Shown: piece after piece, positions 37,056 to 47,667 of the stretch | Numbering within the stretch: the stretch's first letter is position 1 | Layout of the letters: the number at the start of each line of letters is the position of its first letter | Source of the DNA: Actinopolyspora mzabensis | Lineage (GTDB): Bacteria; Actinomycetota; Actinomycetes; Mycobacteriales; Pseudonocardiaceae | Direction of reading: 5' to 3' | Length of the DNA: 64,000 nt | Assembly (NCBI RefSeq): GCF_900101095.1 | Contig: NZ_FNFM01000011.1 | Coordinates: forward strand, 1 to 64,000 | Translations under genes and position numbers: made by a program | The notes under the pieces: model-generated | Databases searched by the model: none | The model's input: the letters and a program-made list of their open reading frames with translations, nothing else | Told to the model about the DNA's origin: nothing

Positions 37056-37127
37056 GCCGGGAGACGAGTCCCACTACCGGATGGACCCGTGCGGCGCACC
37101 GGCCATCGCCCGGCCTACCGTGGACCC

Positions 37128-38033
37128 GTGCGTTTCGGGTTTCTACTGCGCCCCGGCTGGATCGCGTTGCTCCTGCTGGTGGGTGTTTTTTCCACGCTCT
37201 GCTTCACGGTGCTGTCACCGTGGCAGTTCAGCAGGCACAACGAGACGCAGGCGCGCAACGACGCGATCCGGGCATCGATGCGCGCGGAGCCCAAGCCGTT
37301 GCGTGATGTGCTGCCGAGCGGGGAGGCTCCGGGCTCCTCGACCGAGTGGAAGCGGGTCACGTTCACCGGTCACTACCTTTCCCGTGGCGAGACACTGGCC
37401 TGGCAGCGCACCGTGCTCGGCGAACCCGCCTTCGAGGTGCTGACCCCGTTCCGGCTGGAGAGCGGTGGGACGGTGCTGGTCGACCGTGGATTCATCCGCC
37501 CGGTGGAGTCCACCAGGGCGCCGGAGTACGCGGCCGCCCCGGAGGGGACGGTGCGGTTGACGGCGCGGATCCGCGCGAACGAGTACGACGCCGAACAACG
37601 CTCGATGTTCCGCCACGACGGCCACCGGTGGACGTACGCGATCAACGCGAACACGGTGGAGCGCGGCGTCGATATTCCGCTGCGCCCCGGTTACTTCACA
37701 CTGGTCTCCAACCAGCCCGGTGTGCTGCAGGCCGTGCCACTGCCGAGGCTGGAGTCCGGCCCCTACTTCTCGTACGCGATGCAGTGGATCATCTTCGGAG
37801 CCATGGCCCCGCTGGCGGTGGGGTATCTGGTCTACGGCGAGATGCGTTCCCCCCGCACTCCGAGCGGCCGGGTACCGAGCGGGGGATCACCGCACGGGGA
37901 GGCGTCCGAGAGCGGCGGGCGGAAGCGGAGATCCCGCATGTCGGTCGCCGAGGTGATCGCGGCGGAGGAACGCCGGGAGCAGGAGAGTCGGGAACAGGAG
38001 AAGCGGGAGCAGGAGAACTCGGCGGGTACCTGA
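37128..38033 (+). CDS. SURF1-family cytochrome oxidase assembly protein
   Basis: 301 residues from GTG 37128 (VRFGFLLRPGWIALLLLVGV). Two membrane segments, about 8-30 and 212-235, flank a periplasm-facing domain with FTVLSPWQFSRHNE, RVTFTGHYLSRGETLAW and RVLVDRGFIRP-like strands (GTVLVDRGFIRPVE). The hydrophilic Glu/Arg tail (QEQESREQEKREQE region) ends the protein. SURF1 helps insert heme into aa3-type cytochrome c oxidase. This is the Rv2235 position. Its end faces cbiB (25 bases, convergent). Confidence 0.92.
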   Translation: MRFGFLLRPGWIALLLLVGVFSTLCFTVLSPWQFSRHNETQARNDAIRASMRAEPKPLRDVLPSGEAPGSSTEWKRVTFTGHYLSRGETLAWQRTVLGEPAFEVLTPFRLESGGTVLVDRGFIRPVESTRAPEYAAAPEGTVRLTARIRANEYDAEQRSMFRHDGHRWTYAINANTVERGVDIPLRPGYFTLVSNQPGVLQAVPLPRLESGPYFSYAMQWIIFGAMAPLAVGYLVYGEMRSPRTPSGRVPSGGSPHGEASESGGRKRRSRMSVAEVIAAEERREQESREQEKREQENSAGT

Positions 38034-38057: not shown

Positions 38058-38999
38058 TCACCTCCGCCTGCCCACGAGCAGCGCCGTCACCGAAGCCAGC
38101 ACACCCCCCACGGTGCCGATCAGCCTGGACAGCTCGACACTTCGGGTGATGTCGCCACCGTCGGCGGTACGCCCCTCCCCCAGCACGGGGCGGGTCTCGG
38201 CGGTGTGCTCGTAGTCGATCCGGCCTCCCAGCCTGATGCGCAGCGCACCGGCGAACGCCGCCTCGACCTGGCCCGCGTTGGGACTGGGGTGCGCCGAGGC
38301 GTCCCGTCGCCTGATCCGACCGCTCTCGCGCGCCGAGCCACCGACCACCGGTGCGCACGCCACGGTCAGCATCGCGGTGGTGCGTGCCGGGAGCAGGTTC
38401 AGCAGATCGTCCAGTCGCGCCGCGGCCCAGCCGAAAGCGTGATACCTGCTGCTCCGGTTCCCGATCATGGCGTCGAGCGTGTTGGTCGCCCGATAACCGA
38501 CCAGTCCCGGAACTCCCGCGAGGGCGCCCCAGAACAGCGGAGCGATGACCGCGTCCGAGGTGTTCTCCGCCACCGATTCGACCGTGGCACGCGCCAGTCC
38601 CTGGTTGTCGAGCTCGTCGGCGCGGCGCCCGCACAGTCCTCGCAACCTGGAACGCGCCGCCGCCAGCTCACCGGAGTCGAGGTGACCGGCCATCGCGCTG
38701 CCCTCCCGCGCCAGGGATGCGCCGCCGAGCGCACTCCAGGTCGCCAGGGCGGTCAACGTCGCTTCGGCCACCGGCGAACGCCGGACCATCCGCTGCGACA
38801 GCGCACCGAGGCCAACGGTCGCGCCGACCAACGCGGCGGTGTGCAGCACGCCTGCCGAACGGTCGGCGCGGTAGGTGACCGACTCCACCCGCTGCGCGAT
38901 CCTGCCGAACGCCGCCACCGGGTGGCCGCGTTTCGGATCCCCCAGCACCGCGTCAGCGGCTACGCCGAGTAATAAACCGACCGCCCGCCCCGAGCTCAC
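38058..38999 (-). CDS. cbiB: Adenosylcobinamide-phosphate synthase
   Basis: 313 residues from GTG 38999, GGAGGAGTAGGC upstream. N-terminus VSSGRAVGLLLGVAADAVLG then DPKRGHPVAAFGR, the family's conserved start. Four or five membrane segments follow, with ENTSDAVIAPLFWGALAG (about 150) and GYRATNTLDAMIGNRS. It joins the aminopropanol(-phosphate) arm to adenosylcobyric acid in cobalamin synthesis (called cobD in pseudomonad/mycobacterial nomenclature, Rv2236c). No cobalamin riboswitch is visible upstream. It is divergent from jetA with 133 bases between. Confidence 0.92.
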   Translation of the reverse strand: MSSGRAVGLLLGVAADAVLGDPKRGHPVAAFGRIAQRVESVTYRADRSAGVLHTAALVGATVGLGALSQRMVRRSPVAEATLTALATWSALGGASLAREGSAMAGHLDSGELAAARSRLRGLCGRRADELDNQGLARATVESVAENTSDAVIAPLFWGALAGVPGLVGYRATNTLDAMIGNRSSRYHAFGWAAARLDDLLNLLPARTTAMLTVACAPVVGGSARESGRIRRRDASAHPSPNAGQVEAAFAGALRIRLGGRIDYEHTAETRPVLGEGRTADGGDITRSVELSRLIGTVGGVLASVTALLVGRRR

Positions 39000-39132
39000 G
39001 CCTACTCCTCCTCGCAAGGTCGACCACGTCCGTGGCGGACGCTACCTTTCCGTGACGACACGAGGCACACCGAGGTCACGAGTAACGGAGTGTTTTCGGT
39101 GGCTCCCGAGTCCGGGGTTATCGTGGCTGACC

Positions 39133-40926
39133 GTGACCGCCGATCACGAAGCCGTCGAACCGAGCTCCGGGGCGATGCCGAACGCCGTGCCGCCCCACCC
39201 CGCTCCGGTCGCGCATCCACCTGGTCCGGAATGGATCACCGGAGCCGGAACGGACGGCGCCGACCTCGCGAGAACCGCTTCCCCGCACGGCGGGACAACC
39301 GCGGGCGCCGAGGTCTCGGACGGTCCGGCGGCCGAACGGGAGCTTCCGACGGACCCGGACGTCGACTCCGGTGAACGACGCCTGCTGCTCTACCGCCACC
39401 TGCAGGTGAGCGGCCACCGCACCTACCTGACGATCATGCGGCTGTTCACCTCCACACTGCTGGCGGACCTCTCCGCGGCGGAGGTGGCGGGCACGCTGGC
39501 GGTGGCCGAACGCGAGGGCAGGATCGCCGAAGGTGAGTCCGAGCTGTCGACAGTGGTCGAACGGCTGCGCAAGCTCCGCGAATGGGGCAACCTGACCCAC
39601 GGCAGGCGCGAGACCACCGCGTCCAGCATCGCGGAGTTCCAGCACGGCAGCGTGCGCTTCCAGGTGAGCAAGCTGGGTGTGCGGGTGCAGCGGGACGTGG
39701 ACGCGCTGCTGCGGGTTCCCGAGGGCGCACGGGAAGTCTCCAAGGAGTTGCTGCCCGCCATCGAGCGCGGGCTGCACGGGATCGTGGAACTGCTTCCCGA
39801 GGAGACGAGCGTCGAGACACTGCCGGAACGGACCAGGGAGCGCCTCTCGGAACAGGTAACCACGGTCTTCCTGCAGCACTCCGAGCTCGCCGACACGGTT
39901 CGCGACTTCTACGCCTACCTCGGCCAGGTGGTTACCAGGCATCACCTGAACGCGAGCGAGATATCCGGTTTCCGGAATCTGCTGGTGGAGTACATCCAGG
40001 CGGTGGTAGAGGACGTGATCCGCCACACCGAGCCGATCGCGGCGTCGTTGAGCGTGCTGGCACGGCGTCGGGAGCAACTGCTGGCGGCGCTGGGCACCGT
40101 GGAGGACCTCGGCGCGGAGGTGGAGCGGGCACGCGGCAGGACCGGGGCCGACTGGCAGGAACTCACCGACTGGTTCCTGGACTCACCGGGCAGGCCGAGC
40201 CAGGTGTCGGCACTGCGCGAGGCTACCGCACGCGCGATCGGCTCGTTGCTGGCCAGCGTCAAGCACGCAACCTCGGGCGGCGGGCCGGTACCCGGGCGCC
40301 GGAGCGATCTGCTCCACCTGGCGCGCTGGTTCGACGACTCCGATCAGGCCGGTGCGCATCGGCTCTACGCCGCCGCTTTCGGGCTGTACTCCTCCCGATG
40401 TTTTCAGCCCGCCCCGCCGCACGACGGGGACGAGCACGCCACCAGCTGGCTGGCGGGAAACCGCGTGGAGATCCCGGTCAACGTTCGCAACCGCGCCGAC
40501 CGGAGCGGCAGCGGCGGCACCTCGCGGGTGCTGCACGACCCCATGACCGAGCGGCAACTGCTGGACGAACGCCGAGCCGAGCAGCAGCGGCGTGCCGCCG
40601 CCGTGGACGAGCTGGCCGCGACCGCGGAAAACCTGACGGCGAGCAGGCTCTCCGCCGATGCGCTGGAAGTGCTGTGCGAACTGCTGACATTGGCGATGGC
40701 CGACCGGGAGGATCCGACCGAAACCCGCACGGCGCTGGAACCGGTCCACCGACTGCGGCTGCGAATCCGGCACGCCCCGGAGAGCCCGACCACGATTTCC
40801 AGCGTGCGCGGCGAACTCACCCTGCGAGAGACGGCGGTGGAGCTGGATGTCTCCGAGATGTCCGGGAAAATCACCGCGACCGGATCCGCGAACCACGAGA
40901 ACGTCACCGACGGAGCGATCCGATGA
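39133..40926 (+). CDS. jetA: Wadjet JetA-like kleisin subunit (DUF2397/TIGR02677)
   Basis: About 597 residues from GTG 39133; the start is uncertain because the first 70 residues are Pro/Ala/Gly-rich and ATG 39175 is an alternative. The folded part begins near 80: RLLLYRHLQVSGHRTYLTIM and LADLSAAEVAGTL, and later VTRHHLNASEISGFRNLLVEYIQ in pieces, with helical heptads through the middle. FDDSDQAGAHRLYAAAFGLY and PMTERQLLDERRAEQQ near the end match DUF2397. JetA is the kleisin bridging the SMC-like JetC heads. First of four genes overlapping by 4 bases. Confidence 0.87.
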   Translation: MTADHEAVEPSSGAMPNAVPPHPAPVAHPPGPEWITGAGTDGADLARTASPHGGTTAGAEVSDGPAAERELPTDPDVDSGERRLLLYRHLQVSGHRTYLTIMRLFTSTLLADLSAAEVAGTLAVAEREGRIAEGESELSTVVERLRKLREWGNLTHGRRETTASSIAEFQHGSVRFQVSKLGVRVQRDVDALLRVPEGAREVSKELLPAIERGLHGIVELLPEETSVETLPERTRERLSEQVTTVFLQHSELADTVRDFYAYLGQVVTRHHLNASEISGFRNLLVEYIQAVVEDVIRHTEPIAASLSVLARRREQLLAALGTVEDLGAEVERARGRTGADWQELTDWFLDSPGRPSQVSALREATARAIGSLLASVKHATSGGGPVPGRRSDLLHLARWFDDSDQAGAHRLYAAAFGLYSSRCFQPAPPHDGDEHATSWLAGNRVEIPVNVRNRADRSGSGGTSRVLHDPMTERQLLDERRAEQQRRAAAVDELAATAENLTASRLSADALEVLCELLTLAMADREDPTETRTALEPVHRLRLRIRHAPESPTTISSVRGELTLRETAVELDVSEMSGKITATGSANHENVTDGAIR

Positions 40927-42179
40927 GAACACGGGAGACCTCGGTTCCGGGGTTCGACCGACTCGGCGACATAGACGCGGCCAACGTGGTGCGCTGTGCC
41001 AGGACCCTGCTGCGCCGCCCGTTACTGCACGCGGCGAGCCAGGACGGCGACCTGCTGGGCATGATCTACCGCCACCGCGCGGTGCTGCGGGAACTGTTCG
41101 CCACACTGCTCGGCTACCGGCTGGTGATCCGCAGACGGTACGCACGGTTGTACAAGTCCGGCCCCGGCCCGGACGCCACCAGGGCGGTCCCCACCCTCAC
41201 CCCGCGCGGCTACGCCTACGTGGCGCTGACGCTGGCCGCGCTGACCGGGTGCGGAAAGCAGGTGCTGCTCTCGCGGCTGATCGACGACATCCGGGGGGCC
41301 GCCGTGGAAGCCGGGATCACGATCGACGACGAACCCGGCGAACGCAGGGCGCTGGCCACCGCACTGCGCCATCTGGTCACCCTCGGGGTGCTCACCGAGA
41401 CCGAGGGCACGGTCGGCCCGCTCGCCAACGACGCCACGGCGGAGGCGCTGATCACCGTCGACACCGATCTACTCGGTCAACTCGTGACCGGACCGCTGTC
41501 GGAGGCCGACGGTCCACAACGGCTGGTGGAACTGGCCTCGGGCAGTACGGGGGCGCACGCGGCCACCGTGGAGCAGGCCGTGCGACGCAGGCTGGTGGAG
41601 GACCCGGTGGTGCACTACCGGGATCTGCCGGAGGCCCAGGCGAACTGGCTGCGCAGGCACCGAACCGGTGAGACCGGGCTGCTGGAGCGGTACTTCGGTA
41701 TCGTGGCCGAGTCGCGCTCGGAGGGCATCGCCACCACCGATCCGCAGGACTACCTCAACGACACCTCGTTCCCCGGTAGCTCGACGGTGGCGCGCGTGGC
41801 CCAGCTCGCGATCCCGCCGCTGCTGCACGGCTCCGCCCCCCGGGAGGGCGATCACCGGCACCCGGTCGCGCGGGAGGATTTCCGCGTGGCGTGCGAGGAG
41901 CTGCTGGAGAGATATCCGGCAGCCTGGTCCCGCCGGGCGATCGAGGATCCGGATTCGCTGGTCACGATGGTGATGGATCTGCTGCGGCGGGTGGGCGTGC
42001 TGATCCCGCACGAGTCCGGTGATTCGGAGCGGTGGCTGCTCAGCCCCAGCGCGCACCGCTGGCTACCGATCCCGGACGGCGAACCGGCCCCGGCGGAACG
42101 GGAAACGGAGCCTCCCGCCGACACGGCGGTACCCGACCTCGCGTTGTTCGACTACCCGGAAGGAGAAACCGCCCGGTGA
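40923..42179 (+). CDS. jetB: Wadjet JetB-like subunit (DUF2398/TIGR02678)
   Basis: 418 residues from ATG 40923; the ATGA overlaps the JetA stop. Winged-helix (KITE-type) features: CARTLLRRPLLHAASQDGDL at the N-terminus, FATLLGYRLVIRRRYARLYK (about 60-80), PTLTPRGYAYVALTLAAL and the C-terminal WLLSPSAHRWLP. JetB binds JetA to form part of the SMC-like complex. DUF2398 similarity is by pattern recall. A Glu/Pro tail of about 30 residues ends with FDYPEGETAR; its DNA carries the ribosome site for jetC. Confidence 0.87.
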   Translation: MRTRETSVPGFDRLGDIDAANVVRCARTLLRRPLLHAASQDGDLLGMIYRHRAVLRELFATLLGYRLVIRRRYARLYKSGPGPDATRAVPTLTPRGYAYVALTLAALTGCGKQVLLSRLIDDIRGAAVEAGITIDDEPGERRALATALRHLVTLGVLTETEGTVGPLANDATAEALITVDTDLLGQLVTGPLSEADGPQRLVELASGSTGAHAATVEQAVRRRLVEDPVVHYRDLPEAQANWLRRHRTGETGLLERYFGIVAESRSEGIATTDPQDYLNDTSFPGSSTVARVAQLAIPPLLHGSAPREGDHRHPVAREDFRVACEELLERYPAAWSRRAIEDPDSLVTMVMDLLRRVGVLIPHESGDSERWLLSPSAHRWLPIPDGEPAPAERETEPPADTAVPDLALFDYPEGETAR

Positions 42180-45100
42180 GCACGGAAGCGGTGACGAGGC
42201 CCGACGGCGCTGCAGGACAGCACCTTTCGACCGCTCCCGGCGGAGACTCCCCAGGGCGGGAAGAAGTCGGTGGCCGGTGGCGTCTGCGGCGGGGCGGCGT
42301 GGTCAACATCTGGCAGTACGCCAACCAGACGTTCGACCTCAGCGGGGGACGCGCGATCTTCCAGGGGACCAACGGCTCCGGAAAGTCCCGAACCCTGGAG
42401 TTGTTGCTGCCGCTGTGTCTGGACGGTGATCTGCGACAGATCGGGTCCAAGGGATTCGACACGGTCAGCATGAAGCGGCTGATGCTCGACGAACGTGAGA
42501 GCGGGGGCAACCGGCTCGGCTACGCCTGGGTGGAACTGTCCAGGACGGCACGCGACGGCTCCGAGCGGTTTCTGACCTGTGGGATCGGAGTGAAGGCCAC
42601 CGCGACCTCGAACCAGATCAGCGATTCGTGGCGGTTCGTCACCGAACGCCGGGTCGAGCACGACCTGCGGTTGATCGGGTCGGGGGAGGTGCCGCTGAGC
42701 CAGCCCCAGCTGCGCGATGAGCTGGGTGCGGAGTGCCTGCACGACGAGCAGTCCTTCCGGGCCCGGATCGCGGGCACGGTTTACGGCATCACCCCGGAGC
42801 GCTACGGCGATCTGCTGCATCTGCAACGCACGCTGCGCAATCCCGACGTCGGGCTGCGAGTGCAGGAGGGACAGCTCGAACAGATCCTGTCCGACGCGCT
42901 GCCACCGCTGGACTCGACGCTGATACAGCGGCTGGCGACCTCGTTCGAGGACCTGGAGTCGATCCGCGAGAACATCCTGCGACTGACCACGGCCGACAGC
43001 GCGCTGAGCTCGTTTTTGACCACCTACGCGGACTACGCGCTGACAGTGCTGCGCACGCGGGCGAAGGCCTCCCGAGAGGCGGCCAGGCAGCACGACTCGC
43101 TGCACACGACGATCGACGAGCTGGCCGAGCGGTACCGTTCCGAACTGGACGAACGTTCCGAGAACGAGGAGCTGGTCGGCGAGCTGGAGCAGCGCGACCG
43201 CGAGCTGGACTCCTCGCTGGGTGCGTTGCGGCAGAGTCCGGCCTACACCGAGCTGCAGAACCTGCACGACCGCAGGGCACTGGTGGACAACGAGCGCTCC
43301 GCGGCGGAAGGCGCGCTCCGCACGGCCGAACGGCATCGTGACCAGGAACAGCGCTCTGCCTCCACGGTGCTGGGCATGTTGGAACGACTGAGCTCGGACA
43401 TCGACGCGGCCGAACAGCACCGCCGCCAGGCCGATGCGGGACTCAGGGCGTCGGGGCTGGACGGTTCGCTGGCACCGGCGATACCGACGATGCCTCCTAC
43501 GGAGGCGACGGTCCGCTGGGAGGTCGTGCGCGGCACGGCCGACAGCGGTTCCGAATGGCTCGATGTGGCACGGCACATCCCGCCACAGCCCGACACCGAG
43601 GAACTCGCCTCCCGGCTGCGTGAGGTGGACGAGCATGCCGCCGCGGCGGTCGAGGCCGCGCGGGAACGCGGTGCGTTGACCCTGACACTGCGACAGCAGG
43701 CCGAGGAGACGGATCGGCAGCGGGCCGAGGTCTCCGACGCCGAACGGCAGGCCGAAGCGGCGAAGGTGACCGCCACGGAGGCCGCCGCGCGGCGCAACCA
43801 GGTACGGCAGGACCTCTACGACACCGCCGTGACATGGCTGGACCGGGTTCGACGCTGGTGGCACGACAGCGCCCTGGCGAGCGAGGCCCCGGGAACACCC
43901 CCGCCCCCGGAGTCCCCGACGCCGGAGCAGTTGACAGCCGACCGATTCGCGGCGCGCGGCGGCAGGGAACGGATGCGCGAGTGGGCGCAGCCGGTGCTGC
44001 ATCGCGTGCGGATGCGCATCACCGAACTGGATCGGAAGCTGGCGGAGACCCGCTCGGCGGTGTCGGAACGCGACACCGAACTCGCGGAACTGCGTTCCGG
44101 CGGCGAGCGGGTACCTGCCTCGCCGAACCGGGCCACCCCGGAACGGGATCCGGCCTCGGGCGAGGCGTTCTACCGGCTGGTGGACTTCGCGGAATCGCTC
44201 CCCGAGTCCGAACGCGCTGCGCTGGAAGGTGCGCTGGAGGCCTGCGGGCTGCTCAACGCGTGGGTGACAGCCGACGGCACCGCCACGGACGCCGCCACAG
44301 CCGACGTGGTGGCGACACCGGGCGAGCGGCTCACCGCCGGCTCCCTGGCCGACCTGCTCGTCCCCGCCGCCGAACCCGACTGCTGCGTCCCCGATGCGCG
44401 GATCGAAGCGTTGCTGCGTTCGGTAGCAGTGGCCGACACGGCGGGAACAGCGGTGCGTACCGACGGCCACTGGCGCACCGGGGTGCTCTCCGGCGCCTGG
44501 CGCAAGGAAACGGCCGAGTACGTGGGCGCGGGGGCTCGCAACGCCGCCCGGCAGCAGCGCATTACCGAGTTGGAGGCCGAGCTGGCGGAACTTCGGGCGG
44601 AACTCGGTGAGGTGGAGCGGCAGCGGGCCGCCTCGGCACGACATGCCGAGTCGCTGGAGCGCGAGCTGGAGTCCTATCCGGACGACGACGAACTGTTCAG
44701 CGCGCACGCGAGACTGAGCAGCGCCGTCGACGACGCGGACGAGGCACAGCGCACCGCGAACCGGTCGCGGCAGGCCCACGAACAGGCGGAGGCACGCTGG
44801 CAGGCGATGCGTTCCGAGCTGTCCCGCGCTGCGGGCCGAGCGGGGTTGCAACCGGAGACCGAAGCGCTGCAGGAGGCCAACCGCGCCGCCACGGACGCCC
44901 GCCGGGCGTTGGAAACCCTGCGAGAGGCAGTCGGGTCACGATGCCTCGGCACGTTGAAGCAGTTGGGCACCACGGTGCTGCACCACGACGCGACGGTCGC
45001 CGACCGGATGGCGGCGGAGTCACTCGCCGAACAGCACTGCGCGAACCACGCCGAGCAGGCCGCCGCCCTGGCGGAGTTGACCGCCTCCGTCGACGACGAG

Positions 45101-46387
45101 GGCAAGCGGGTCGCCGAACAGGTCGCCGAGCTCACGCGGGAGCAGGAACAGCTCCGCGAGCGGCTCCCCGAAGTCAGGGAGCGGATCGCCGCTGCCCGGG
45201 AGGAGGCCGGGAAACTCGACGAGAAGCTGACAGCGGCTCGTGCCCGGCTCTCCGAGCGCGAGTCGGAGAGCCGCGCCGCGGCGAGCGCGCTGCGTCGGGC
45301 GATGGAGCTACCGGGGCTGTGGGCAGCGGCCGTGGCGGCCACCGAGGGGGAGCTGCCCGAATCCCCCGATGGGGTCGAGGAGGCGGCCACCGCGCTGCTG
45401 TCCACCGCGGTGACCCGCTCGTCACCGGGTAGCACGACGGCCAAGGCGGTGCACGACAAACTGCACCCGTTGCAGCAGTCGCTGAGCGGTCACTTCGACG
45501 TCACCACGGCCGAGGAGGACGAGGTGCTGACCGTGACCGTGATCGGCGAGGAGGGGCCGCTGCCCGTCGCCGAGGCGGCCCTGCGGATAAGCCGTCGGTT
45601 GGTCGAGCAGCGCGAGTACCTCAACGAACAGTACCGGTCGATCTTCGCCGACTACCTCATCCGCGATCTCGCGGAGCGGCTGCGCGACCAGATCGCGGTG
45701 GCCCGGGATCTGTGCGACCGGATGAATCGGGTGCTGGAGGGGGCGCGCTCCAGTCAGGGGGTGCACGTGCAGCTGGACTGGCAGCCCGCCACCGCGCTGA
45801 GTGAGGACCTGCGGCAGGCCATCGAGGTGGTCCGGAAACCGTTCGCGGAACGCGGGGAGCAGGAGGACGCCCTGCTGCGTCGGGTCTTCACCGAGCTGAT
45901 CGAGTCGCAGCGGGAGAGCGTTTCCGGCGGTTACGGTGAGATCCTGGCCAAGGCGCTGGACTACCGGGACTGGTACGAGTTCACGGTGCGGGTCCGCGAC
46001 TCCGGCCCCGACAACCGGCAGCGGGTGCGGCGACTGCGGCAGTTGTCCTCGGGGGAAACCCGGCTGGTGTCCTACGTGACCCTGTTCGCGGCGGCCGCTT
46101 CGTTCTACGACGCCATCGAGTCCGCGTCCCAGCAGCACGACCCGTTGCGACTCGTGCTGCTGGACGAGGCGTTCGAGCGCCTGGACGACCCGACGGTGGC
46201 ACGTATGCTGGGGTTGCTGGTGGATCTGGACATGGACTGGATGATCACCTGGCCGAGCGGTTGGGGGGTTTCCCCCAAGATCCCGAAGATGCACATCTAC
46301 GACGTGCTGCGACCGCGCAGCGGGCACGGAATCGCCTGCACCCACACCGTGTGGAACGGTCGCGGTCTGGAGCGGACGGAACATTGA
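42176..46387 (+). CDS. jetC: Wadjet JetC SMC-like ATPase (TIGR02680)
   Basis: 1403 residues from GTG 42176, AGGAGAAACC upstream; GTGA overlaps the jetB stop. Walker A is GTNGSGKS at about 64-71. Two long coiled-coil arms (about 330-650 and 790-1110) flank a hinge-like globular region (about 660-770, with EAFYRLVDFAESLPE and LLNAWVTADG). The ABC signature is LSSGETRLVSYV (about 1290) and Walker B LRLVLLDEAFERLDDP (about 1325). JetC dimers extrude DNA loops and let the system sense small circular DNA. All ATPase motifs appear intact. Confidence 0.92.
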   Translation: MSTEAVTRPDGAAGQHLSTAPGGDSPGREEVGGRWRLRRGGVVNIWQYANQTFDLSGGRAIFQGTNGSGKSRTLELLLPLCLDGDLRQIGSKGFDTVSMKRLMLDERESGGNRLGYAWVELSRTARDGSERFLTCGIGVKATATSNQISDSWRFVTERRVEHDLRLIGSGEVPLSQPQLRDELGAECLHDEQSFRARIAGTVYGITPERYGDLLHLQRTLRNPDVGLRVQEGQLEQILSDALPPLDSTLIQRLATSFEDLESIRENILRLTTADSALSSFLTTYADYALTVLRTRAKASREAARQHDSLHTTIDELAERYRSELDERSENEELVGELEQRDRELDSSLGALRQSPAYTELQNLHDRRALVDNERSAAEGALRTAERHRDQEQRSASTVLGMLERLSSDIDAAEQHRRQADAGLRASGLDGSLAPAIPTMPPTEATVRWEVVRGTADSGSEWLDVARHIPPQPDTEELASRLREVDEHAAAAVEAARERGALTLTLRQQAEETDRQRAEVSDAERQAEAAKVTATEAAARRNQVRQDLYDTAVTWLDRVRRWWHDSALASEAPGTPPPPESPTPEQLTADRFAARGGRERMREWAQPVLHRVRMRITELDRKLAETRSAVSERDTELAELRSGGERVPASPNRATPERDPASGEAFYRLVDFAESLPESERAALEGALEACGLLNAWVTADGTATDAATADVVATPGERLTAGSLADLLVPAAEPDCCVPDARIEALLRSVAVADTAGTAVRTDGHWRTGVLSGAWRKETAEYVGAGARNAARQQRITELEAELAELRAELGEVERQRAASARHAESLERELESYPDDDELFSAHARLSSAVDDADEAQRTANRSRQAHEQAEARWQAMRSELSRAAGRAGLQPETEALQEANRAATDARRALETLREAVGSRCLGTLKQLGTTVLHHDATVADRMAAESLAEQHCANHAEQAAALAELTASVDDEGKRVAEQVAELTREQEQLRERLPEVRERIAAAREEAGKLDEKLTAARARLSERESESRAAASALRRAMELPGLWAAAVAATEGELPESPDGVEEAATALLSTAVTRSSPGSTTAKAVHDKLHPLQQSLSGHFDVTTAEEDEVLTVTVIGEEGPLPVAEAALRISRRLVEQREYLNEQYRSIFADYLIRDLAERLRDQIAVARDLCDRMNRVLEGARSSQGVHVQLDWQPATALSEDLRQAIEVVRKPFAERGEQEDALLRRVFTELIESQRESVSGGYGEILAKALDYRDWYEFTVRVRDSGPDNRQRVRRLRQLSSGETRLVSYVTLFAAAASFYDAIESASQQHDPLRLVLLDEAFERLDDPTVARMLGLLVDLDMDWMITWPSGWGVSPKIPKMHIYDVLRPRSGHGIACTHTVWNGRGLERTEH

Positions 46388-47667
46388 ACGATCCCGAGAG
46401 CATTCGCGCCGTCTGGGACCTGCCGGAGCTGCGGGGCCTCTGGGAACGCGCCAGGCAGGCGCTGGAGGCCGCCGACCGTCCCGCGACGTTCCGGCTGGAG
46501 CTGCCGGACGAGCGGACTCGCCAGAAGGTGGGCGAGGTCTACGGCCGCCCCATGTGGGGGCAGGGAACCAGGATCAATGTGTCCAAACTGGATGAATCGC
46601 TGCGTGCGGGCGAACACGGCGTCGATCTGGAACGGCTGCTGGAGATCCTGCACGAACGACCGATCACCCGGCAGGAGTCGGGTTCACGACGCCGAGGAGG
46701 CGAACAGGACCGGACCGTCGGGGTGCTGCACGCGGCGCTGAGCGAGCACGGTCTGGCGGAACAACCGTGGGCCGCGGCATGGACCGACTGGGTGAGGCAG
46801 TACGGACGGGTGGCCGACTCGGACCTGGACGCGATCGCGGAACACGCCGCCGCCGTACTGGCCCGTCTCGTGCTGGACCCCGACCGACAGCCACGGGGCT
46901 GGTGGTCGCGCACCGAGTTGGCCGCGCGGTGCGCCGGGAGCGAGTACGAGCTGGACAACGGGACCACGCTGAGCCGAGTGGTGCTGCGTGCCGCATCGAT
47001 GGCGCACGGCACGGACTCACCGGGCGGTGAACGTGACCGCCGGAACCTGTGGGAACGCTGCGGAGTCACCCCGGACGGGATCTCGGTCACGGTGCCCTGC
47101 TGGGCGCTGCCGCTGGCGGGGCAGGACACGTGGTCGAGCACCGTGCGGGAACGCACCGAGCTGGGACTGCCGACGCACCTGACACTCCTCGACCTCCGGG
47201 CCGCCCCGGAACCCCTGGTCGAACCGGGCACGGTGATCGCGGTGTGCCAGAGCGCGCGGACGCTCGAGGCCGCCGTGGCCGCGGGTGTCCGGCATCCGGT
47301 GGTGTGCCTGTCCGGTCGTCCCGGCACGGTGGCGCTGGAACTGCTCGACCGGCTGCGGGCCGACGGGGCGGTGCTGCGGTTGCACTGCGACTTCGACTGG
47401 ACGGGGCTCTCCGTGGCGGGGGCGCTGTACGAGCGGCCGGGGTTCGTGCCGTGGCGGATGTCGGCAGCGGACTACCGCGAGACGGTGAACCGGGCCGCCG
47501 CCCGGCGCACCGACCTGCGGATCCTGGACGAGAACCCCACCGAGGCACCATGGGATCCCGAGCTCCCCGAGGTCATGTCCAGCGCCGGCCGTGCCGTCGA
47601 GGAGGAGATCGTGCTCGACGATCTGCTGCACGATCTGCGGAACGGACTCGACGGCGCGGTGTCCTGA
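46384..47667 (+). CDS. jetD: Wadjet JetD-like TOPRIM subunit (DUF2399/TIGR02679), altered active site
   Basis: 427 residues from TTG 46384 (TTGA overlap with jetC). The N-terminal winged-helix/arm region (about 1-230, LPELRGLWERARQALE, NVSKLDESLRAG) is followed by the TOPRIM-like DUF2399 domain. Its DxD is present in LHCDFDWTGLSVAG (about 333-346). The earlier strand reads VIAVCQSARTLEAA (about 282-295) where family members usually have V-C-E-N-P, so the metal-binding Glu is replaced by Gln. VVCLSGRPGT replaces the usual C-T-E-G-Q-P. MSAADYRETVNRA is kept. JetD is the nuclease that cuts plasmids in Wadjet systems; this copy may be inactive or depend on other residues. Confidence 0.85.
   Translation: MNDPESIRAVWDLPELRGLWERARQALEAADRPATFRLELPDERTRQKVGEVYGRPMWGQGTRINVSKLDESLRAGEHGVDLERLLEILHERPITRQESGSRRRGGEQDRTVGVLHAALSEHGLAEQPWAAAWTDWVRQYGRVADSDLDAIAEHAAAVLARLVLDPDRQPRGWWSRTELAARCAGSEYELDNGTTLSRVVLRAASMAHGTDSPGGERDRRNLWERCGVTPDGISVTVPCWALPLAGQDTWSSTVRERTELGLPTHLTLLDLRAAPEPLVEPGTVIAVCQSARTLEAAVAAGVRHPVVCLSGRPGTVALELLDRLRADGAVLRLHCDFDWTGLSVAGALYERPGFVPWRMSAADYRETVNRAAARRTDLRILDENPTEAPWDPELPEVMSSAGRAVEEEIVLDDLLHDLRNGLDGAVS

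Follow-up and report, generated by a model that had tools for sequence, protein, structure and literature searches.

Glutamine in place of the TOPRIM glutamate in JetD of a conserved Actinopolyspora Wadjet locus: a nuclease subunit probably kept without cutting

The window considered here, a stretch of 64,000 nucleotides from Actinopolyspora mzabensis (contig NZ_FNFM01000011.1, positions 1 to 64,000), contains a four-gene type II Wadjet operon whose last gene encodes JetD, the nuclease subunit of such systems, with Gln instead of the conserved TOPRIM Glu in position 289. Judging from the comparison of sequences, this JetD is probably unable to cut and would persist as the DNA-binding part of a core SMC complex; we assign this reading a probability of about 0.56. 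The replacement had been noticed in a preliminary description of the window. The present analysis adds that, by comparison with orthologous loci, it is a derived state of a conserved core locus shared by four genomes, and that sister genera show further losses of the same Glu.

The gene and its diagnostic motifs are the following.

46384..47667, forward strand: JetD, Gln form (DUF3323 CAP domain and DUF2399 TOPRIM domain; matches to TIGR02679, PADLOC JetD2 and Pfam), overlapping JetC by 4 bases
47242..47268, forward strand: VCQSARTLE motif (V287-C288-Q289-S290-A291-R292-T293-L294-E295), with Gln289 replacing the TOPRIM Glu
47380..47400, forward strand: LHCDFDW, the TOPRIM DxD (D336, D338) kept, Gly335 replaced by Cys
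47599..47607, forward strand: C-terminal EEE (residues 406-408), which the alignment places on the LEQER Glu pair conserved in type I JetD

The open frame starts with TTG and encodes 427 amino acids. The protein matches both DUF2399 and DUF3323 (Pfam search) and PADLOC JetD2 (E 6.8e-101), while its TIGR02679 score, 173 bits over nearly the whole profile, is under the curated cut-off of 196 and leaves it outside the formal membership of that family. VCENPRVLE of Glu-form orthologues is replaced by VCQSARTLE; the codon of Gln289 is CAG (47248-47250), and the orthologous codon is GAG in all four Glu-form genomes checked. The preliminary description gave the codons TGC CAG correctly, placing them at about 47242-47247, three bases before their actual position (47245-47250). 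As it also stated, CDFDW and MSAADYR are kept, the former containing the intact DxD (D336-F337-D338). It had further listed CLSGRP as an oddity of this protein, and this did not hold, as Glu-form orthologues also read CLSGRP, CVSGRP or CVSGNP. Leu-His-Cys before the DxD replaces Tyr-His-Gly, and one Glu-form JetD also has HCDFDW; thus both CLSGRP and Gly335Cys, being found in Glu-form JetDs, were dropped as signs of inactivity.

The assignment of Gln289 to the TOPRIM metal-site position is supported by comparison with type I JetDs. In the profile alignment (hhalign), the Glu column of type II JetDs falls on the Glu invariant in 13/13 type I JetDs, at a probability of only 45 and E 2.2e-4, and the DxD and the C-terminal Glu pair are also in register between the two types. 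The spacing between Glu and Asp in type I JetD (317 to 360) is that of E236 and D279 in MksG, and on this spacing Gln289 would be equivalent to MksG E236; both E236A and D279A drastically impaired cutting by MksG, according to passages of PMC10123090. The predicted fold (pLDDT, the predicted local distance difference test score, 89) belongs to the Topo VI A, MksG and JetD group: in the VIA-align fold comparison it matches Topo VI A, C. glutamicum MksG and JetD (7til), and residue 289 is predicted to stand directly after a TOPRIM strand. Searches of PDB sequences with the JetD protein or with the JetD alignment found no relative, and the matches came from the fold comparison alone. The earlier identification of this residue with a metal-binding Glu is thus upheld by the alignment to the invariant Glu of type I, the position in the predicted fold and the effect of MksG E236A.

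The loss of Glu observed in this JetD is confirmed and is not usual. Among 191 unique JetDs collected, the column is readable in 185, with Glu in 149 and another residue in 36. This set is enriched for relatives of the window, and the class-wide TIGR02679 search of 394 genomes, counted over rows other than short and fragmentary ones, gives a fairer baseline. Here 80 loci were read apart from the relatives of the window, of which 77 were readable (76 Glu and 1 Gln); with three more rows added (Gln of the window, Glu of a second copy in the window genome, Ala in contig C231 of G053), Glu is found in 77 of the 80 readable JetDs. The exceptions are the window JetD itself, the Ala form of G053 and the Gln form of G205; the latter JetD (L170) is a distant one that reads VCQQP and has the normal YHGDFDW; it presents a further, separate Glu-to-Gln change.

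All ten Actinopolyspora genomes examined carry an orthologue of this JetD. The Gln form occurs in four of them (the window genome, A. alba, A. righensis and one further Actinopolyspora genome), which form one clade both in the JetA-D tree and in the JetD tree, and in that clade Gln follows the first TOPRIM strand without exception. The remaining six, including A. xinjiangensis, A. mortivallis and A. biskrensis, have Glu. An artefact of sequencing or assembly was rejected, since the same change is present in four separate assemblies. Two Gln forms score 173 and 187 bits against TIGR02679, and seven Glu-form relatives 195-236 bits, six of the seven over 196. The window genome (G000) has JetD genes at two other places: a canonical type II one with VVENP (C14:531793-533151), only about 30% identical to the Gln form, and a PF09983-type one (C12:222730-223272).

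The Gln-form JetD is under normal purifying selection and is not decaying. The four Gln operons are intact, the Jet genes taken from 16 fetched loci are free of internal stops (in the Halopolyspora locus JetA, JetB and JetC were not found), and the other three Gln-form JetDs, differing from that of the window by about 6%, contain no stop. In the branch codon model, a home-made one with which Nei-Gojobori pairwise values agree in direction, the omega (ratio of nonsynonymous to synonymous rates) of JetD is 0.099 for the Gln crown, 0.086 for the background and 0.215 for the stem. Neutrality is strongly rejected, the log-likelihood (lnL) with the crown fixed at omega 1 being -5661.5, versus -5587.2 with a single free omega. 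When the stem is given an omega of its own, twice the lnL rises by 9.3 for JetD, and by at most 1.4 for JetA, JetB and JetC. In 12 Glu-form sequences (a count that omits G053) 125 JetD columns are invariant, and the Gln clade differs in four of them, V233I, E289Q, P291A/T and V293T, three of which lie within the eight invariant columns of the motif (about 7e-4, post hoc); the position of N290 is variable.

In the studied systems JetABC extrudes circular DNA up to a block, whereupon JetD cleaves the kinked stretch (passages of PMC10586767 and PMC12287153). Under the preferred reading, E289 was replaced by Gln in the ancestor of the four Actinopolyspora genomes, with P291 and V293 changed too, and JetD would no longer make the double-strand cut, or would make it very poorly. 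The JetABC motor would still load and extrude DNA, JetD would stay as a dimeric DNA-bending or regulatory subunit, and the complex would hold or compact DNA uncut. As an engineered catalytically inactive JetD together with JetABC binds and bends plasmid DNA (a passage of PMC13040014), the Gln-form complex may likewise reach the bent state and stop there.

Several points weigh against this reading. Gln is the mildest replacement of Glu, and both Asp residues of the DxD as well as Glu295 are kept. In the Bp OLD nuclease, E400A, which removes the Toprim Glu, had by itself no discernible effect on cleavage (according to a passage of PMC6755086). The canonical type II and PF09983-type JetDs of the window genome are a possible backup there. 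Control lineages changed from 0 to 17 invariant columns, so that four is an ordinary number, and what is informative is solely where the changes lie. Tested by itself, the stem of the sister pair with Glu likewise has a raised omega (a gain of 5.1 in twice the lnL). The rate change cannot therefore be ascribed to the Gln stem only, and a burst of change on that stem alone is not claimed. Finally, in four Saccharothrix genomes the Arg-form JetD is away from the JetABC locus altogether, on a different contig from that of JetC.

Given the harmless OLD substitution and the retained Glu295 and DxD, residual cutting is the main rival explanation: the Gln-form JetD would still be a nuclease, its metal held by both DxD residues (D336 and D338), by Glu295 and the C-terminal pair of Glu, and by oxygens of the main chain or of Gln, with the rate or the choice of metal tuned. 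The C-terminal EEE is also kept, the omega is like that of an ordinary functional gene, and A. alba (G007) and A. righensis (G004) yielded no further JetD of the one type or the other. The Glu295 column is acidic in 35 of the 36 Glu-less JetDs, and the preliminary description had suggested that a nearby Glu might substitute; however, all 27 Glu-form rows of the wide clade to which these belong have Glu here too, so common descent may suffice to explain the acidic column. Across the 149 unique Glu-form JetDs only 59 have it. A role for Glu295 as substitute ligand is weakly supported and is not needed. Residual cutting is further opposed by the retention of Glu in nearly all class-wide JetDs and in all type I JetDs aligned, by the strong effect of E236A in MksG, which is more closely related than OLD, and by the replacement of Pro291 and Val293, invariant in the 12 Glu forms. 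We regard a still active nuclease as unlikely, though a serious prospect, and loss of catalysis in the window clade as likely on the sequence comparison. Regarding the bind-but-not-cut role proposed in the preliminary description, its maintenance by purifying selection agrees with a role that involves no cutting; the loss of cutting itself and the action as a loop trap or silencer stay conjectural.

Alternatively, the gene could be a recently inactivated nuclease gene heading for loss, in which Glu was lost by drift and the rest had no time to decay. The raised stem omega would agree with this, as would the position of JetD outside the JetABC operon in Saccharothrix and the absence of JetABC beside a Glu-form JetD in Halopolyspora. 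However, the omega of the Gln crown is close to that of the background and of the partner genes, the Gln forms diverged from each other without acquiring stops, and the Glu-less JetDs of the Lentzea group (see below) have an omega of 0.058, and this explanation, already disfavoured, is improbable. It is still harder to credit that the Gln-form JetD regulates a second, active Wadjet of the cell or acts as its dominant partner. The window genome does have a second type II JetD and a PF09983-type JetD, and G009 a second type II JetD, but in G004 and G007, which have the Gln form, neither another type II JetD nor a match to PF09983 was found. Moreover, the second JetD is so distant, and a complete JetABC operon of its own accompanies the Gln form.

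The other genes of the operon and the neighbours marking the locus are given below.

37089..38033, forward strand: gene that we take to be SURF1-like, a further conserved neighbour
38058..39017, reverse strand: gene that we take to be cobD/cbiB-like, the conserved upstream neighbour marking the locus
39175..40926, forward strand: JetA, kleisin (DUF2397, PADLOC JetA2; Pfam 361 bits, PADLOC E 8.7e-177), start codon chosen by inspection
40923..42179, forward strand: JetB, KITE protein (DUF2398, TIGR02678, PADLOC JetB2), overlapping JetA by 4 bases
42176..46387, forward strand: JetC, SMC-like ATPase (TIGR02680, 733 bits)

JetA, JetB, JetC and JetD follow in this order on the forward strand (39175-47667), each overlapping the next gene by 4 bases. 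The operon shows the type II Wadjet set of domains (Pfam DUF2397, DUF2398, SbcC Walker B and DUF2399/DUF3323) and matches PADLOC JetA2 to JetD2, JetA scoring 130 bits against TIGR02677, under its cut-off of 166. The ATPase motifs of JetC are intact (Walker A GTNGSGKS, signature LSSGE, Walker B LVLLDEAFERLDD).

The presumed cobD-like gene flanks JetA on the opposite strand in 37 of 39 loci examined, a count that for Lentzea and Actinokineospora covers the fetched loci; the two exceptions are the second Wadjet of the window genome and Halopolyspora. Genes presumably encoding the SURF1-like protein, a kinase and a phosphatase precede the cobD-like/JetABC locus in most loci examined. This conservation of neighbours points to vertical inheritance, not to a mobile island, and to the window Wadjet standing at an old chromosomal locus common to several Pseudonocardiaceae genera. 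In Halopolyspora (L049:11316-12590) a Glu-form JetD stays by the cobD-like gene, and JetABC was not found at the locus.

Glu-less JetDs are also present in related genera. Of the 79 loci kept from the scan of relatives, 33 lack Glu and 46 have it. There are 31 unique Glu-less JetDs from Lentzea, Saccharothrix, Actinokineospora and one Nocardia, with Arg, His, Thr, Ala or Ser in this position. In Lentzea, Saccharothrix and Nocardia sp. NRRL S-836 (the Lentzea group) there are 23 unique sequences, 22 with Arg and one with His; all of them read DFTP or DFSP for the DxD, and most are about 335 amino acids long. Among the Glu-less forms, the second Asp of the DxD is absent only in this group. Eight unique Glu-less JetDs come from Actinokineospora (six Thr, one Ala, one Ser) and keep the DxD, and Glu is kept in all 16 named Saccharopolyspora loci of the scan and in Actinokineospora iranica.

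In the approximately unbiased (AU) test with the motif columns removed, made on 58 rows including 13 of the 23 Lentzea-group sequences, joining the window clade with the other Glu-less rows (25 of the 58) is rejected (p 1.6e-20), and thus the loss in the window clade is independent of those in the other genera. A single Glu-less clade of the Lentzea group and Actinokineospora is not rejected (p 0.33), and certain separate losses in these two were dropped as a claim, despite the tree placing the Glu-form A. iranica beside Actinokineospora. There are therefore at least three losses of Glu (the window clade, the Lentzea group with Actinokineospora, and G205), and not certainly four. Loss of catalysis is much more likely in the Lentzea group, with both Glu and the DxD altered, than in the window clade.

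The motor is retained in these lineages: Walker A, signature and Walker B of JetC are intact in 20/20 loci read from them, and JetD lies beside or near JetC in 16, the remaining four being from Saccharothrix. In eight Lentzea-group loci the omega of JetD, given above, compares with 0.026 for JetA, 0.064 for JetB and 0.055 for JetC. The JetD values for four Actinokineospora Thr forms and six Glu-form Saccharopolyspora are 0.134 and 0.075, respectively; the value for the set of three Actinokineospora sequences with Ala, Ser and Thr (0.016, tree length 8.6) is saturated and was not used. The four Saccharothrix genes apart from JetC (L138, L139, L141 and L146) are solo short Arg-form JetD genes under purifying selection (omega 0.102). 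Within the group L254, L257, L258, L260 and L268, several Lentzea loci have approximately 1.2-2.5 kb between JetC and JetD, and in Actinokineospora inagensis JetD is on the opposite strand, so JetD seems to be drifting out of the operon there.

JetC of Saccharothrix sp. NRRL B-16314 is followed immediately by a gene that encodes a fusion of DUF3323 with a TIR domain (Pfam). A search of 390 genomes of the family for this CAP-TIR architecture gave three full-length copies in one genus, including that of the query, all downstream of JetC on the same strand and two of them after a gap of about 1.7 kb.

L261:11818-12942, forward strand: JetD CAP-TIR fusion
L331:10828-11934, forward strand: JetD CAP-TIR fusion
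L332:10590-11696, counted on the reverse strand: JetD CAP-TIR fusion

In these three genomes the TOPRIM nuclease has apparently been exchanged for a TIR effector. A fourth CAP-TIR frame (L293:697-1800) was observed in a Saccharopolyspora-group genome (G811) on a contig other than that of its JetC, possibly a separate fusion event.

More broadly, and tentatively, at somewhat less than even odds, the core, vertically inherited Wadjet locus of several Pseudonocardiaceae genera may have repeatedly ceased plasmid cutting, its TOPRIM domain being inactivated (by Gln, or by Arg, His, Thr, Ala or Ser) or replaced by TIR, and JetABC being kept under strong selection as a DNA-trapping or organising loop extruder. 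According to a review, the origin of MksBEF, and perhaps of MukBEF, may lie in Wadjet-like systems that lost the nuclease (a passage of PMC10586767). Glu-less JetDs by intact JetABC, together with close Glu-form orthologues at the same locus, are matched natural pairs for this idea and bear on what a loop-extruding Wadjet does when it is unable to cut, while the CAP-TIR fusions suggest that the effector of the JetABC motor is exchangeable. If so, these loci would make a living series between defence and housekeeping SMC systems, and the chromosomal Wadjet of the four Actinopolyspora species with Gln may have quit DNA cutting for another job. Among the matches listed for Wadjet with Lentzea, other genera, TIR or inactive JetD, the titles, abstracts and passages, mostly from outside subscription journals and preprints, contain no report of Glu-less or TIR-fused JetD variants.

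Compared with known systems, the window operon resembles a type II Wadjet in its four genes in order with 4-base overlaps, the complete JetABC with its ATPase motifs and the CAP and TOPRIM domains of JetD, and differs in the lack of the TOPRIM Glu, in a TIGR02679 score under the cut-off and in the presence of an orthologue in each of the ten Actinopolyspora genomes. MksG of Corynebacterium glutamicum, a type I JetD (PDB 8b7f), is an active Mn/Mg nuclease with E236, whereas the window JetD has Gln in the presumably equivalent position. MksBEF of Pseudomonas aeruginosa is likewise a Wadjet-like SMC complex, having no nuclease, whereas the window system keeps a JetD with a defective site, and a chromosome role for it would be conjectural. 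The Saccharothrix CAP-TIR fusions share the type of locus, the retained JetABC and a TOPRIM out of use, but there a TIR domain stands in place of the TOPRIM, while in the window JetD it is the Glu that is altered.

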